DNA of 64,000 nt from Gammaproteobacteria bacterium (GTDB lineage: Bacteria > Pseudomonadota > Gammaproteobacteria > Steroidobacterales > GCA-2729495): positions 62,001-126,000 of the forward strand of contig JADYZO010000107.1 in assembly GCA_020853135.1 (NCBI GenBank). The letters are read 5' to 3'. The position numbers and the translations under genes are program-made. This document shows, piece by piece, positions 43,978 through 51,016 of the stretch. The notes under the pieces were generated by a model. That model made no database searches, was not told where the DNA came from, and worked only from the letters and a program-made list of their open reading frames with translations. The first letter of the stretch is position 1, and each line of letters begins with the position of its first letter.

Positions 43978-45024
43978 ATGACGCTCGGCCCCCTCATGAT
44001 CGACGTCGCCGGCCTGGCCCTGACGGCCGGGGAGCGCGAGCAGCTGGCCGATCCGCTGGTGGGTGGCGTGATCCTCTTCGCGCGCAACTTCGCCGACCGC
44101 GGGCAGTTGCAGGCCCTCACCGCGGAGATCCGCGACGTGCGCCATCCCGCGCCGCTGATTGCCGTCGACCAGGAGGGCGGGCGCGTGCAGCGCTTCCGCA
44201 CCGGTTTCACGCTGCTGCCGCCCCTGCGCTGGCTCGGGCACCAGTACGACGCGGATGCCGACCGGGCCCGCCACCTCGCCCGGGCCTGTGGCTGGATCAT
44301 GGCGGCGGAGCTCGTGGAGGCCGGTGTGGATTTCAGCTTCGCACCCTGCGTGGACCTCGACTGGGGACTGAGCGGGGTGATCGGCGACCGCGCCCTGCAC
44401 CGCGATCCCGACGCCGTGGCCAGCCTGGCGCTCTCGTACATGCAGGGGATGCGCGCCGCGGGCATGGCGGCGGTGGCCAAGCACTTCCCGGGGCATGGTG
44501 CCGTGACGGCCGATTCGCACCATGAGCTGCCCGTGGACCGGCGGTCGCTGCCGGAGATCGACGAGGACATCGCACCCTACCTGCGGCTGATCGACCATGG
44601 CCTGGCCGGCATCATGGTGGCGCATGTGCGCTATCCCCGGGTCGATGACCGCATCGCGAGCCTGTCGCCCCTGTGGCTGCGTGGCCAGCTGCGCCAGCGC
44701 CTGGGCTTCCAGGGGGCCATTTTCACCGATGACCTGAGCATGGCGGGTGCGTCGGTCGCAGGAAGCACCACCGAGCGCGTGCGCCAGGCGCTGGCTGCCG
44801 GTGCCGACATGGCCCTCGTCTGCAACGATCCGGTGGCCGCGGCCGGCGCACTCGGGGGGCTGGCCGGCTTCAGCGACCCGGCCGCGCATGCACGCCTCGT
44901 GGCGATGCGGGCCCGGCCGGTGCGGCCGGGTGAGCCCCCGCTGCGTGAGCATGCCGACTGGCAGCGGGCTACTGCCCAGCTGGCAGCGGCCCTCGACCGA
45001 CCGCCGCTCGACCTGCGTGGCTGA
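43978..45024 (+). CDS. nagZ: Beta-N-acetylhexosaminidase NagZ
   Basis: AVDQEGGRVQRFRTGFTLLPP, KHFPGHGAVTADSHHELPVD. Confidence 0.95.
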   Translation: MTLGPLMIDVAGLALTAGEREQLADPLVGGVILFARNFADRGQLQALTAEIRDVRHPAPLIAVDQEGGRVQRFRTGFTLLPPLRWLGHQYDADADRARHLARACGWIMAAELVEAGVDFSFAPCVDLDWGLSGVIGDRALHRDPDAVASLALSYMQGMRAAGMAAVAKHFPGHGAVTADSHHELPVDRRSLPEIDEDIAPYLRLIDHGLAGIMVAHVRYPRVDDRIASLSPLWLRGQLRQRLGFQGAIFTDDLSMAGASVAGSTTERVRQALAAGADMALVCNDPVAAAGALGGLAGFSDPAAHARLVAMRARPVRPGEPPLREHADWQRATAQLAAALDRPPLDLRG

Positions 45025-45574
45025 GCCGCCCGTTCCCGGTGCGCGCCTGCTGGTGCCCGCGGCCCGGGTCGCGCGGGCCTGGACGCGCCTGGCCGCGGGG
45101 CTGCAGCCGCTGGTCGATGCCACCGGCTGCGTCTTCATCGGCGTCATGGTCGGCGGGATGGTGCCGCTGGTGGAGATCGCCCGGCGGCTAAGCGGAGACT
45201 TCGTCCTCGACTACTGCCAGCTGAGCCGCTACCGGGATGCCCGCACCGGCGGGGAGTTGCGCTGGATCAGCCGGCCGCAGCAACCGCTGCAGGGACGGCT
45301 GGTCGTGCTGGTGGACGACATCTTCGACGAAGGCCACACGCTCGCCGAACTGCGCCGCCATTGCCTGGAGGCCGGCGCAACGCGCGTCGTGGCCGCGGTG
45401 CTGGTGCGCAAGCGCCATGACCGGCCGGTGGCGGGGCCGCTGCCGGAATTCGTCGGCCTGGAGGTCGGGGATGAGTTCGTCTTCGGTTGTGGCATGGACC
45501 ACCAGGGGCGCTGGCGGCACCTGCCCGGCATCTACGCACTGGCCGGGCCGTCGGCCGGTGGCGCTCCGCCCTGA
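45017..45574 (+). CDS. Hypoxanthine-guanine phosphoribosyltransferase family (GTG start)
   Basis: VVLVDDIFDEGHTLAELRRHC PRPP motif, phosphoribosyltransferase fold; downstream of nagZ. Confidence 0.85.
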   Translation: MAEPPVPGARLLVPAARVARAWTRLAAGLQPLVDATGCVFIGVMVGGMVPLVEIARRLSGDFVLDYCQLSRYRDARTGGELRWISRPQQPLQGRLVVLVDDIFDEGHTLAELRRHCLEAGATRVVAAVLVRKRHDRPVAGPLPEFVGLEVGDEFVFGCGMDHQGRWRHLPGIYALAGPSAGGAPP

Positions 45575-45764
45575 ACGGGTGCGCCGTGGCCAGCGGGCAC
45601 TGACGTCCGCAGGCGGGCCTTGGCGCAAGGCGGTGACCGCTGTCACAGACCGGGCACGGGACGCCACCTAACATCCACCATCGGGTTGCTGCCTTGCCGG
45701 ACCGCTGCGCCGGCAGGCAGCTGCCGGTTCACGTGGTATCAGTTCAGAATATCCTGACAAGTCG

Positions 45765-46706
45765 ATGAAAGATATTGATAAAAACGTCCTGATCCAGGCG
45801 CTGGAGCAGCTGCCCATTGGCACCCTGATCATCGATGCGCGCCAGGAGCACTGGCCCGTGGTCTACATGAATGCCATCGTCGGCCAGCTCGTCGGGCTGG
45901 ATACGGACAGCCTGCTCGGCTGTCCCTGGCGCGGCCTGCTGGTGGACCCGGAAGAACTGCTGCCCCAGCGCGAGCGCCTGCTCGGCAACCCCTCCCTCGT
46001 GGTGCGCCACCTGCGCCAGCGCTGGCAGTCGCGTTCGGGCGAGCCCGTGGACATGACCCTGCAGGTCTCGCCGCTGTTTGCCCGGCCCGGGCAGCCCGCG
46101 TACTGGCTGGTCACCGTCGATGCCGATCCGCGCGGCGGCGAGTCCTCCGGCGAGGACACGCTGCGCCTGGCGCTGCGCGATGCGCAGCTGCGGCTGCGGC
46201 AACTGGATCGCAGTGATGCCACCACGGGCCTGGCGAACCGCCAGAGTTTCCTCGAGGTGGTGCAGCGCGACTGGGCGATTGCCAGCCGCGAGCAGCGGCG
46301 CATCAGCGTCATCGTCTTCGAGGTCGATGCCTTCGACCGCTACCGGGACCTCTACGGCAGGCATGCCGCAGACTCCTGCCTGCGCAAGGTGGCGCATGCC
46401 ATCAACGGCTCGCTGCGCCGGGGCGGGGACGTGGCAGCCCGCCTGGCCGACAACCGGTTCGCGGTACTGGTGGGTGGCAGCGAGGAGGCGCAGGTGCGCC
46501 AGTTCGCCGAGCAGATCGCGCGCAAGGTCCGCCACCTGGCGATCCATCACCCGCGCTCGCCGGCTGGCCGCTACCTCACTGTCTCGGTGGGTGTCGGCAG
46601 CGAGGTTCCGCCAGGCGGGGCAGGCGAGAGCACGCTGCTGCAGAAGGCGGAAGCCGAACTCGCACGTCCGGCCAGCGCAGCCGGCCAGGTGCTCGGGGCG
46701 GGCTGA
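45765..46706 (+). CDS. PAS + degenerate GGDEF domain protein
   Basis: PAS-like N-term; GGDEF-fold ATTGLANRQSFLEVV...; active-site position reads ADNRF instead of GG(D/E)EF, RxxD I-site retained (RGGD). Confidence 0.88.
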   Translation: MKDIDKNVLIQALEQLPIGTLIIDARQEHWPVVYMNAIVGQLVGLDTDSLLGCPWRGLLVDPEELLPQRERLLGNPSLVVRHLRQRWQSRSGEPVDMTLQVSPLFARPGQPAYWLVTVDADPRGGESSGEDTLRLALRDAQLRLRQLDRSDATTGLANRQSFLEVVQRDWAIASREQRRISVIVFEVDAFDRYRDLYGRHAADSCLRKVAHAINGSLRRGGDVAARLADNRFAVLVGGSEEAQVRQFAEQIARKVRHLAIHHPRSPAGRYLTVSVGVGSEVPPGGAGESTLLQKAEAELARPASAAGQVLGAG

Positions 46707-46755: not shown

Positions 46756-47388
46756 TCAGGACTCCTCGTCGGTGGCAGCCGCCGGGCCCTCGTCCCCGGT
46801 TCCGGCCGGTGCCTTCACCGCGATGATCACGCCGAATGCCGGATGGTCGAAATACTGCAGGGCGGTGCCGCGCAGCCGTCGGCCCTGGCGGATGCGCCAG
46901 TTCCCGCCCGCCGCCTCGCCGGCAGCGGACAGCGACACATCGACCAGCACATGCAGGTAGCGTTCGCGATAGAGGGTGAGCGCGCCGCTGAGTCCGGCCT
47001 GCAGCGCTGCCTCGGGCAGCGGCGTCGGCCGCGCCTGCGCCTGCGGCTCCACGGCCTGGGTCCAGCCGCCGTGATAGAGCAGCTGGTAGCCCGGCCCGCG
47101 GCGCAGGCGCGCGGCGAGGTTGCCGAGGCGCAAGGCCCCCGGGGCCAGCGGCGTGGTTTCGGTGGATGCGCCAGGGTCGGGGGCCGGGGCTGCCCGCGGC
47201 GCGAGTGGCGCAGGCACCTCCGGGGTATTGCCGCGCTGGTCGAGGTGGCGGAACACCACGATCTCCACCTCGTAGGCGCCGGCCATCGCGGACGCAGGCC
47301 ACAGCGCGGGTGACATCGCGAGCAGGGCGAGGAACAGGGTGCTCGCGCCGCGGCCGGCTGCGGTTCGGCGGTCTGGCATGGGCCTCAT
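46756..47388 (-). CDS. csiV: CsiV family exported protein
   Basis: YEVEIVVFRHLDQRGNTPE N-term after signal peptide, YLHVLVDVSL, FDHPAFGVIIAV; adjacent to mfd. Confidence 0.8.
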   Translation of the reverse strand: MRPMPDRRTAAGRGASTLFLALLAMSPALWPASAMAGAYEVEIVVFRHLDQRGNTPEVPAPLAPRAAPAPDPGASTETTPLAPGALRLGNLAARLRRGPGYQLLYHGGWTQAVEPQAQARPTPLPEAALQAGLSGALTLYRERYLHVLVDVSLSAAGEAAGGNWRIRQGRRLRGTALQYFDHPAFGVIIAVKAPAGTGDEGPAAATDEES

Positions 47389-50300
47389 GATGCCATGTCG
47401 GCCCGGCGGGCGGCAGCCGCACCGCCGCCTGCCGGCGTGGCCGCGAGTTGCGCCAGCAGGTGGCCGGCGTAGGCCAGCCGTTCTTCGGGTTCGTTCATCT
47501 GCGCACGGAAGACGAGCCGCTGGCGCGGGTCCAGGCGGAACTGCCTGGGGTCCGCGCCGATCAGGCGGACCAGCACCGCCGGGTCCACCTGCGTGGCCTG
47601 GGCGAATTCCACGCTCCCGCCGCCGCTGCCGGCCGTCAGGCGCGCGATGCCGAGCGCGCGGGCCTGCAGCCGCAGCCCGGCGATGCGCAGCAGGTTGGCC
47701 GTGGCCGGGGGCAGGTGGCCGAAGCGGTCCGCCAGTTCGCGCCCGAGTTCCGCCAGGGCGCCGGCGCCATCCGCATTGGCGATGCGCTTGTAGAGCACCA
47801 GGCGGAGGTGGATGTCGGGCAGGTACTCCTCGGGCAGCAAGGCCGGGACGTGCAGGTCGATCTCCGGACCGCGCCCGGCACCCTGTCCGGGATCGATCTC
47901 GATGCCCTTCTCCAGGGCCTGCACGGTGCGGGCCAGCATCTCGTTGTAGAGCGCGAAGCCGATTTCCTGGATCTGCCCGCTCTGGCCTTCGCCCAGCAAC
48001 TCCCCGGCGCCGCGGATCTCCAGATCATGGGTCGCGAGCAGGAAGCCGGCGCCGAGGTCCTCGAGCGCCTCCATCGCCTCCAGGCGCTGGCGCGCATCGG
48101 CCTGCAGCGCCTCGCGCGGCGGCGCCAGCAGGTAGGCGAAGGCCTGGTGGTGGGAGCGGCCGACCCGGCCCCGCAGCTGGTGCAGCTGCGCCAGGCCGAA
48201 CTGCTCGGCCTGGTCGATGATGATGGTGTTGGCGGTGGGCACGTCGAGTCCGCTCTCGATGATGGCGGTGCAGACGAGGATGTCGAAGCGGCGGTGGTAG
48301 AAATCGAGCATCACGCGCTCGAGTTCCCGCTCATGCATCTGGCCGTGGGCGACCTCCAGGCGCGCCTCGGGCATGATCTTCGCCACCTGCGCCGCCACCG
48401 CGCCGATGTCCTGGATGCGGTTGTGCACGAAATAGACCTGGCCGCCACGCTGCAGTTCGCGCAGGCAGGCTTCGCGGACCAGCTGCGCGCTCCAGGTGCT
48501 GAGGAAGGTCTTGATGGCCAGGCGCGATTCCGGCGGCGTGGTGATCAGCGAGAGCTGCCGCAGGTCGCCGAGCGCCATGTTGAGCGTGCGCGGGATGGGC
48601 GTGGCCGTCAGCGTGAGGATGTCCACCTCCGCGCGCAGGCCCTTGAGCTGTTCCTTGTGGCGCACGCCGAAGCGGTGTTCCTCGTCGATGATGACGAGGC
48701 CGAGGTTCCTGAAGGCCGCGTCCTTCTGCAGCAGGCGATGGGTGCCGATGACGATGTCGACCTGGCCCGCGGCGAGCCGTTGCAGCACCTGCCGGTGTTC
48801 CTGTGCGGTCCTGAAGCGCGAGAGCACTTCCACCGTCACCGGCCAGTCGGCGAAGCGGTCGGCGAAGGTCTCGTGGTGCTGCTGGGCCAGCAGCGTGGTC
48901 GGCACCAGCACGGCGACCTGGCGGCCACTGCTGACGGCGGCAAAGGCGGCGCGCAGGGCGACCTCGGTCTTGCCGAAGCCGACATCCCCGCACACCAGCC
49001 GGTCCATGGGCCGGGGGCTGGCGAGGTCCGCCAGCACCTGGTCGATCGCGCTGGCCTGGTCCTCGGTCAGCGTGAAGGGGAATCCGGCCGCAAAGGCCTC
49101 GTAGCCCTGCGGATCCAGCGCCGTGCTGTGGCCGGGCCGCGCGGCGCGCCGCGCGTAGAGTTCGAGCAGCTCGGCGGCCACGTCGCGGATCTTCTCGGCG
49201 GCACGCCGCCGCGCCTTCTGCCACTGGTCAGTGCCGAGGCGGTGGAGCGGCGCGAGTTCCGGGGCGGCGCCGCTGTAGCGCGACACCAGGTCGAGCGAGC
49301 TCACCGGGACGTGCAGCCGGTCGCCACCGGCGTACCCGATCGTGACGAACTCCGCGGCCGTGCCCTCGATGCTCATGCGGGTCAGGCCCACGTAACGGCC
49401 GACGCCGTGGTCGATGTGCACCACCGGGGCGCCGACCCGCAGGTCCGTGAGGTCGCTGACGACGGACTCCGGGTCCCGCCCGCGCCGCCGGCGCCGGCGC
49501 GGGCGCGCGGGCTGGCCGAACAGTTCCTGCTCGGCCAGCAGGGTGATGCCGGCATCGGGCAGATCGACGCCGCGTTCCAGGCTGGCGGTGGCCAGTCCCA
49601 CGCGGCGCGGGCTGGCGAGGAAGGCGGCCCAGTCACTGACCGGTTCCGGAGGCTCGCCCTGGCGCGTCAGCAGGTCGGCCAGCCACTCGCGGCGGCCGGG
49701 GGACTCCACGGCGAACAGCAGGCGCCCGGTGCCTGCGGCGAGAAAGCTGCCGAGCCGCTCGCCGGGGTCGGTCTCGCGTGCGTTGAGCAACAGCACGGGC
49801 GCGGCGGTCGCCGGCAGGCTGGTGCTGCCGGTCGCTGGCGGGAATGGCGCGGCAACTGTCTCGAGGTACACGAGCGGATGGGCGGCGAGGCGTTCAGCGT
49901 GCTCCGCGGGCGGGCAGTAGACTTCCGCGGGCTGCAGCAGGGGGCGCTCGCGGTCCGCGCCGAGCTGCTCGTGGCGTTCCCGGGCCTGTTGCCAGGCCTG
50001 CTCGAATGCGTCCCCGAGGTTGTCCGGGGCCACGACCAGCGTGTCGGCCGGCAGGTAGTCCCAGATCGTCGCCGTCGTCTCGAAGAACAGCGGCAGGTAG
50101 CTTTCCACGCCGGCGGGCCGGCGGCGTTCGGAGACCTCGCGGTAGATGACCGATTCGGCCGGGTTGCCCTCGAAGCGGCGCCGGTAGCGCTGGCGGAACT
50201 GGCGGATGGACTCGGTGTAGTTGGGCAGTTCACGGGCGGGCAGCGTGTCCAGCGCCGCGAGCGGGTCGCCGGAGAGCTGCGTGTCCGGGTCGAAGGTGCG

Positions 50301-50885
50301 GATGCTGTCGATGCCGTCGTCGAGGAAATCCACTCGCACCGGCAGCGCGTGGCCCGTCGGGAAGAAATCCACCAGCGAGCCGCGTACCGCGTAGTCGCCG
50401 GGCACGGACACCAGGCCCACGCGCGCATAGCCCGCCTGGTCGAGGTTCGCCTGGAAGCGCTCCAGGGTGAGGGCATCACCGGTGGCGATGCGCACGGTGT
50501 GCCGCTCCAGGTAGGACACCGGCGCCAGCCGGGGCAGCAGGGTCGTGGCAGCTGTCACCAGGACGCCGCTGCGCCGCTGGCGCAGTTCGCGCAGGATGCG
50601 CAGCCGCGCGGACACGAGGTCCTGGTGCGGGCTGAAGCTGTCGTAGGGCAGGATTTCGAGGTCGGGGAACACGTCCACCGGCAGCGTCCCGCCGGTGAAG
50701 AAGCGCAGCTGGGCTTCCAGCGTCTCGGCCTGCGCCAGGTTGCCGGTCACCACCAGCAGGGGATGACCGGCCGCCGCGAGTTCGGCGATGGCCAGGCCGG
50801 GGGCGCAGCCGGGCAGGCTGGCCCAGCGCTGCGGGGTGCCGGCGCGGGGCAACGGGTCGATGCGGGCAAGCAGGGCGCGCGCCAT
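47385..50885 (-). CDS. mfd: Transcription-repair coupling factor Mfd
   Basis: VCGDVGFGKTEVALRAAFAAV, DEEHRFGVRHKEQLK, TATPIPRTLNMAL, QLRGRVGRS. Confidence 0.96.
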   Translation of the reverse strand: MARALLARIDPLPRAGTPQRWASLPGCAPGLAIAELAAAGHPLLVVTGNLAQAETLEAQLRFFTGGTLPVDVFPDLEILPYDSFSPHQDLVSARLRILRELRQRRSGVLVTAATTLLPRLAPVSYLERHTVRIATGDALTLERFQANLDQAGYARVGLVSVPGDYAVRGSLVDFFPTGHALPVRVDFLDDGIDSIRTFDPDTQLSGDPLAALDTLPARELPNYTESIRQFRQRYRRRFEGNPAESVIYREVSERRRPAGVESYLPLFFETTATIWDYLPADTLVVAPDNLGDAFEQAWQQARERHEQLGADRERPLLQPAEVYCPPAEHAERLAAHPLVYLETVAAPFPPATGSTSLPATAAPVLLLNARETDPGERLGSFLAAGTGRLLFAVESPGRREWLADLLTRQGEPPEPVSDWAAFLASPRRVGLATASLERGVDLPDAGITLLAEQELFGQPARPRRRRRRGRDPESVVSDLTDLRVGAPVVHIDHGVGRYVGLTRMSIEGTAAEFVTIGYAGGDRLHVPVSSLDLVSRYSGAAPELAPLHRLGTDQWQKARRRAAEKIRDVAAELLELYARRAARPGHSTALDPQGYEAFAAGFPFTLTEDQASAIDQVLADLASPRPMDRLVCGDVGFGKTEVALRAAFAAVSSGRQVAVLVPTTLLAQQHHETFADRFADWPVTVEVLSRFRTAQEHRQVLQRLAAGQVDIVIGTHRLLQKDAAFRNLGLVIIDEEHRFGVRHKEQLKGLRAEVDILTLTATPIPRTLNMALGDLRQLSLITTPPESRLAIKTFLSTWSAQLVREACLRELQRGGQVYFVHNRIQDIGAVAAQVAKIMPEARLEVAHGQMHERELERVMLDFYHRRFDILVCTAIIESGLDVPTANTIIIDQAEQFGLAQLHQLRGRVGRSHHQAFAYLLAPPREALQADARQRLEAMEALEDLGAGFLLATHDLEIRGAGELLGEGQSGQIQEIGFALYNEMLARTVQALEKGIEIDPGQGAGRGPEIDLHVPALLPEEYLPDIHLRLVLYKRIANADGAGALAELGRELADRFGHLPPATANLLRIAGLRLQARALGIARLTAGSGGGSVEFAQATQVDPAVLVRLIGADPRQFRLDPRQRLVFRAQMNEPEERLAYAGHLLAQLAATPAGGGAAAARRADMAS

Positions 50886-51016
50886 GGGCTCGGGATCCGG
50901 AAGGGGGGCGCGATTATCACACAGCGTACCGCGGCCGCTGCATGTGGCGGGCATGCTGCCGGGCGGTGCGCGGCCGGGCGGGCCAGCCCGGGGCAGGCTG
51001 GCCAGGGTGCGGCGGG

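Follow-up and report, generated by a model that had tools for sequence, protein, structure and literature searches.

The window, that is, the whole 64,000-nucleotide stretch of DNA that was analysed, holds a gene for a two-domain PAS-GGDEF protein, which lies downstream of nagZ and a phosphoribosyltransferase gene and converges on csiV and mfd. The features of the locus are as follows.

43978-45024, + strand: nagZ, conserved upstream neighbour (NCBIfam PRK05337, E 9.1e-127; synteny)
45017-45574, + strand: phosphoribosyltransferase gene with a GTG start, overlapping nagZ by 8 nt (PF00156, E 7.9e-15)
45633-45646, + strand: CRP-type site GTGA-N6-TCAC upstream of the PAS-GGDEF gene (motif conservation in the family loci)
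45669-45674, + strand: putative -10 box TAACAT, spaced 36 nt from the first base of GTGA (conserved spacing; +1 inferred)
45765-46706, + strand: PAS-GGDEF gene, 313 aa, with a catalytically degenerate GGDEF domain (ORF; AlphaFold2 model, mean pLDDT 89.6)
45777-46118, + strand: PAS domain, about residues 5-118, with a LOV-like fold lacking the flavin-cysteine motif (PAS_4, profile-based match to LOV structures, motif comparison)
46149-46205, + strand: linker helix, residues 129-147, joining PAS and GGDEF (secondary structure of the model; analogy with LadC, PMC10396304)
46287-46289, + strand: R175, counterpart of WspR R198, PleD R313 and MsLadC R174 (alignment)
46320-46349, + strand: degenerate metal/substrate motif EVDAFDRYRD, E186-D195, canonically DxDxFKxxND (translation, family alignment)
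46419-46430, + strand: I-site RxxD, R219-G-G-D222 (family alignments, 99 of 99 relatives)
46446-46460, + strand: dead active-site motif ADNRF, A228-F232, canonically GG(D/E)EF (translation, family alignment)
46756-47388, - strand: csiV, convergent downstream neighbour (PF10972, E 5.8e-24; synteny)
47385-50954, - strand: mfd, conserved downstream neighbour (TIGR00580, E 1.7e-295; synteny)

Membership of the GGDEF superfamily is clear from a Pfam match of residues 151-300 to PF00990 (E 9.7e-30, 103.9 bits against a curated cut-off of 23.8) and from a fold match to WspR, the GGDEF fold being intact in the AlphaFold2 model. Pfam also matches residues 13-117 to PAS_4 (E 4.3e-5), and no output domain is present. 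The WspR GGDEF domain of Pseudomonas is the closest solved GGDEF in a single-sequence search (37-39% identity) and has RxxD and the partner arginine at the same positions; unlike the window protein, WspR is an active response-regulator cyclase. Over the whole chain the best solved match, both by profile (E 1.2e-68 in the PDB) and by fold, is the blue-light LOV cyclase MsLadC (PDB 8C05). The window protein resembles it in sequence and in the layout PAS/LOV, helix, GGDEF, and the positions of RxxD and R174 coincide, but MsLadC, an active cyclase switched by light, has kept the GGDEF motif and the flavin cysteine, neither of which occurs in the window protein. In LadC the counterpart of the linker helix forms the coiled coil of the dimer (PMC10396304). 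The two domains of the model could not be superposed on MsLadC as one body (rmsd 20.8), so the relative orientation of PAS and GGDEF is uncertain.

The state of the active site was assessed from the translation and from the alignment with WspR. As a sequence-only reading of this DNA had claimed, nucleotides 46419-46460 encode R219-G-G-D222-V-A-A-R-L-A228-D-N-R-F232 in the ORF 45765-46706. The RxxD motif stands nine residues ahead of the first GGDEF-motif position, as in WspR (RSSD...GGEEF), so that the canonical I-site spacing proposed in that reading is borne out; ADNRF aligns with GGEEF of WspR, leaving A-D-N at the GG(D/E) positions. In EVDAFDRYRD the Lys is replaced by D191 and the substrate Asn by R194. 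The loss of this Asn had been recognised correctly, but the metal Asp, which had been described as lost as well, has undergone a conservative replacement by Glu. The second Asp (D188) and the equivalent of the guanine-contacting Asp (D203) are still present. With changes at the metal ligand, the Lys, the substrate Asn and every position of GG(D/E)E, the window protein has almost certainly lost cyclase activity. What it retains is RxxD at the canonical spacing beside a degenerate active site, the combination found in PopA, SgmT and CdgA, which makes it a candidate I-site receptor of the degenerate-GGDEF type. As to the secondary arginines of the I-site, R175 is present, and the position of PleD R390 and SgmT R794 is occupied by Q250. 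R175 presumably corresponds to WspR R198 and PleD R313, a numbering that I counted by hand. In WspR and PleD the I-site operates across subunits, and this arginine completes it across the dimer.

To see whether RGGD and ADNRF are more than a chance reading calls for relatives. When 296 genomes from this order were searched, 167 gave a match at E <1e-30, one per genome; some of these may be other GGDEF proteins, and only proteins that were fetched and aligned are counted here as members. Eighty-eight distinct proteins were fetched with their loci, and profile searches added 11 further members, and more taxonomic families, to make 99. The members come from ten taxonomic families of this gammaproteobacterial order and are encoded by intact, single-copy ORFs, in nearly every case at the same locus, where the gene order is nagZ, phosphoribosyltransferase, PAS-GGDEF gene, convergent csiV, mfd. 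Nearly all of the 88 loci adjoin nagZ, csiV or mfd, L045, with short flanks, being an exception; L166 and L175 have no such neighbour within their short flanks. With the motif columns left out of the tree, the family forms one clade (SH-aLRT 99), with mainly active-like GGDEFs on the other side. A literature search that covered papers outside subscription found no description of this PAS-GGDEF family or of its locus.

R219 and D222 are invariant in the alignment of all 99 distinct members and GG(D/E)EF occurs in none of them, which excludes a chance reading. Conservation of RxxD in orthologues had been set beforehand as a test of the receptor idea, and the idea survived it; the expectation that the protein probably makes no c-di-GMP likewise gains from the absence of GG(D/E)EF throughout the family, on top of the changed residues listed above. 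The 88-sequence alignment, at a median pairwise identity of 29%, has only five invariant columns (D151, Y193, R219, D222 and P263), and the same five emerged from a separately made alignment of 68 sequences of that set. Throughout the 88 sequences a small residue (G, S, T or A) fills the second x of RxxD, and R occupies the PleD R390/SgmT R794 position in only 38, a point against the receptor idea; over the 99 members the R175 position is R in 89. Catalytic columns have drifted, with D in 25 of 99 at the metal Asp and N in 19 of 99 at the substrate Asn. The member nearest to an active motif is L171 (G003, taxonomic family f4), with DGDEF and RIDDFDRYIE upstream of it. These patterns bear on two other explanations. 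One is that the gene is a pseudogene-like, decaying relic in which RxxD has been retained by chance; both cyclase activity and LOV photochemistry are indeed lost in the window's taxonomic family, but intact single-copy ORFs at nearly always one locus in ten taxonomic families, five invariant columns at such low identity and a promoter site found in 35 of 35 loci of one taxonomic family (below) make this very unlikely, with hardly any weight left to it. The other is that the degenerate domain senses GTP at what remains of its active site, RxxD being incidental. It could appeal to the position of D203, which is D or E in 93 of 99 members. Since it leaves the invariance of RxxD unexplained, and the metal ligands, the substrate Asn and the phosphate-holding glycines are lost and freely variable, a GTP sensor appears scarcely probable.

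The presence of RxxD is not in itself informative, and taken alone was rejected as evidence: it is carried by 32 of the 38 active-like GGDEF domains that do not belong to the family, and what counts is its retention after the loss of catalysis. The motif is frequent but dispensable, and is not needed for the fold, since only 44-57% of GGDEFs overall carry it (PMC3974145) and AoLadC does without it (PMC10396304). Moreover, four other degenerate GGDEFs in the window's genome (L011, L013, L014, L015) lack RxxD; there, decay of the active site took the I-site along, which is not the case here. Taken together, the residues at the I-site indicate that the window protein quite probably binds c-di-GMP.

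Conservation of RxxD is nevertheless not proof of ligand binding, because LOV cyclases have this motif packed against their sensor domain as well (PMC10396304, PMC12805367); by analogy, selection could be acting on contact of the I-site with the PAS/LOV domain rather than with a ligand. The foremost rival reading is therefore that RxxD serves as an intramolecular clamp, the I-site loop lying in the groove of the PAS dimer and switching an interaction surface according to the state of the PAS domain without any c-di-GMP, as in dark-state MsLadC. MsLadC is the best structural and profile match of the window protein, its 218-RGSD-221 is buried against the LOV dimer while R174 (R175 here) forms a salt bridge with D44 of the neighbour (PMC10396304), and two of four MsLadC I-site variants (GMGG and RAGG) become active in the dark (PMC12805367). 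Yet the PAS halves of the members have diverged strongly. Only 28 of 99 have an acidic residue in the column of the D44 partner (D46 in the window protein), and 62 of 99 keep R175 with no acidic residue there; taxonomic family f7, in which that PAS loop is deleted, retains RxxD. A clamp also fails to predict the joint absence of the family and other GGDEFs described below. On balance it is rather unlikely.

The explanation that I favour, and consider probable from the sequence comparisons, is that the PAS-GGDEF protein is soluble and dead as an enzyme, and that it serves as a receptor (adaptor), with c-di-GMP bound at the I-site. The protein would dimerise through the PAS domain and the linker helix. 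As c-di-GMP rises, a dimer of the nucleotide would be gripped by R219/D222 from one GGDEF domain and R175 from the adjoining one; the ligand-held state would lock one conformation and thereby expose or hide a surface for a protein partner, the protein having no output domain of its own. A second input would come from the PAS domain, which in the window's taxonomic family has ceased to be a LOV flavin photoreceptor.

Known receptors provide precedents for such a protein. PopA of Caulobacter crescentus carries receiver domains, as against PAS in the window protein, and its locus and partners are unrelated to those found here. PMC3509222 cites PopA as a c-di-GMP receptor with, like the window protein, a degenerate active site and an intact I-site, and its citation as an analogue in the sequence-only reading is apt to that extent; PelD, cited beside it, is a weak choice, being unrelated to GGDEF although it has an I-site-like sequence (PMC3509222). 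SgmT of Myxococcus xanthus also joins a degenerate GGDEF to an intact RxxD, the arginine of which is needed for c-di-GMP binding and for localisation (PMC3509222); it differs in being a hybrid histidine kinase with an output and in its third arginine, R794, which is Q250 here. CdgA (Bd3125) of Bdellovibrio bacteriovorus, again with RxxD at the canonical position of a degenerate GGDEF, has no cyclase activity and binds c-di-GMP with a Kd of ~2 uM (PMC3271064), but it belongs to another lineage, and its role at the prey-interacting pole has no demonstrated parallel in the window protein. By this comparison PopA, SgmT and CdgA are better analogues than PelD.

A receptor requires a signal. With 13 GGDEF, 10 EAL and 2 PilZ matches, c-di-GMP signalling is, judging by gene content, alive in the window's genome. 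A survey of the order covered 247 near-complete genomes, and 25 of them are devoid of GGDEF domains. Sizes of 3-4.6 Mb occur among the GGDEF-free genomes of several lineages (f13, f6 g26 and g44), and the genomes of f11 g39 mostly have 0-2 GGDEF domains. No family member was found in the genomes checked that have 0-3 GGDEF domains, a comparison that is partly circular for the zero class because the window protein itself matches PF00990. The genomes with 1-3 domains in which a member was sought and not found are G693, G694, G274, G695, G138, G149, G264, G145 and G237; their best matches have E 7e-42 or weaker and are mostly partial, against 3e-55 or better for members found by this type of search. 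The neighbouring gene mfd was found in 10 of 11 genomes tested, and six of these ten have no GGDEF domain. Co-absence with other GGDEFs fits a dependence of the family on c-di-GMP, although the absences are clustered on the tree and members are missing also from some genomes with 5-10 GGDEF domains (genera g49 and g43). Another explanation is that the protein is a dominant regulatory subunit, which forms heterodimers with active cyclases through the GGDEF domain and linker and inhibits its partner through the I-site. The intact GGDEF fold of the model and its closeness to WspR, the action of the I-site across subunits noted above for WspR and PleD, and the fact that the PAS-GGDEF protein is never the sole GGDEF in the genomes checked all agree with this; synteny, by contrast, links it to no specific cyclase partner. 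Heterodimerisation seems distinctly improbable, and since it also requires binding of c-di-GMP, it amounts to a variant of the receptor reading favoured here.

Expression of the gene was approached through its upstream region. All 35 members from the window's taxonomic family whose upstream DNA is long enough have a perfect GTGA-N6-TCAC, against none of 49 from other taxonomic families; 0.3 among 84 would be expected by chance. A -10-like box follows the start of GTGA at 36 nt in 32 cases and at 37 nt in 3. Given the inferred +1, the CRP-type site would be centred near -41.5, which is the class II CRP position. A search upstream of the PAS-GGDEF gene for a sigma-70 promoter having a -35 as well as a -10 element found none, in line with a CRP promoter of class II. 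As the factor, Clp, the CRP that responds to c-di-GMP in Xanthomonas, was considered and is disfavoured: the genome's CRP orthologue scores ~254 bits to CRP/Vfr against 208 bits to the Clp structure 3iwz, a difference that makes cAMP-CRP the preferred factor but not a proved one. From these motifs, the gene is probably activated by CRP in the window's taxonomic family, through a promoter of the class II type. The gene for the CRP orthologue itself (L236:1429-2130, - strand) has two GTGA-N6-TCAC sites, at 2272-2285 and 2325-2338, both ~140-210 nt before the crp start, an arrangement that suggests autoregulation.

The PAS domain carries traces of the origin of the family. The window protein reads GCPWRGLL where LOV domains have GxNCRFLQ, with W55 at the cysteine column; the LOV motif being absent, a functional LOV photoreceptor was rejected for this protein. 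Among the 99 members the full cysteine motif is found only in the syntenic L165 (L165:1501-2358; G002, taxonomic family f3), in which GQNCRFLQ is joined to an RxxD-bearing dead GGDEF; this protein may be a receptor of c-di-GMP that senses light. Many members from taxonomic family f11 (e.g. L061, L069, L073 and L075) have a GRNLRFLQ-type motif, in which the photoactive Cys is replaced by Leu. According to PMC4682037, LOV proteins lacking the Cys can signal via flavin photoreduction, and so the LOV-like domains of these f11 members may still bind flavin. Stages of decay are thus visible: cysteine present, Cys changed to Leu, motif gone. A bolder hypothesis, offered tentatively and with somewhat less than an even chance of being right in full, is that a light-driven cyclase became a two-domain c-di-GMP receptor once for the whole order, losing catalysis first and then, mostly, light sensing, an order of losses read from a tree without a certain root. 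The I-site would be the sole signature of the catalytic domain to be kept, L165 would be a blue-light-gated receptor built on a dead cyclase, and the one protein of the window's taxonomic family would combine control of expression by cAMP-CRP with sensing of c-di-GMP.

Degenerate-GGDEF I-site receptors are already known; the novelty here lies in a family that spans the order, in its relation to the LOV cyclases and in the CRP promoter. Degenerate domains of this sort are common, and they are usually assessed protein by protein, whereas here an entire order keeps one, with its I-site invariant through deep divergence. The family offers an experimental test of loss of catalysis with retention of the I-site as a predictor of c-di-GMP receptors, and it also allows one to ask how a sensor-enzyme turns into a sensor-adaptor.
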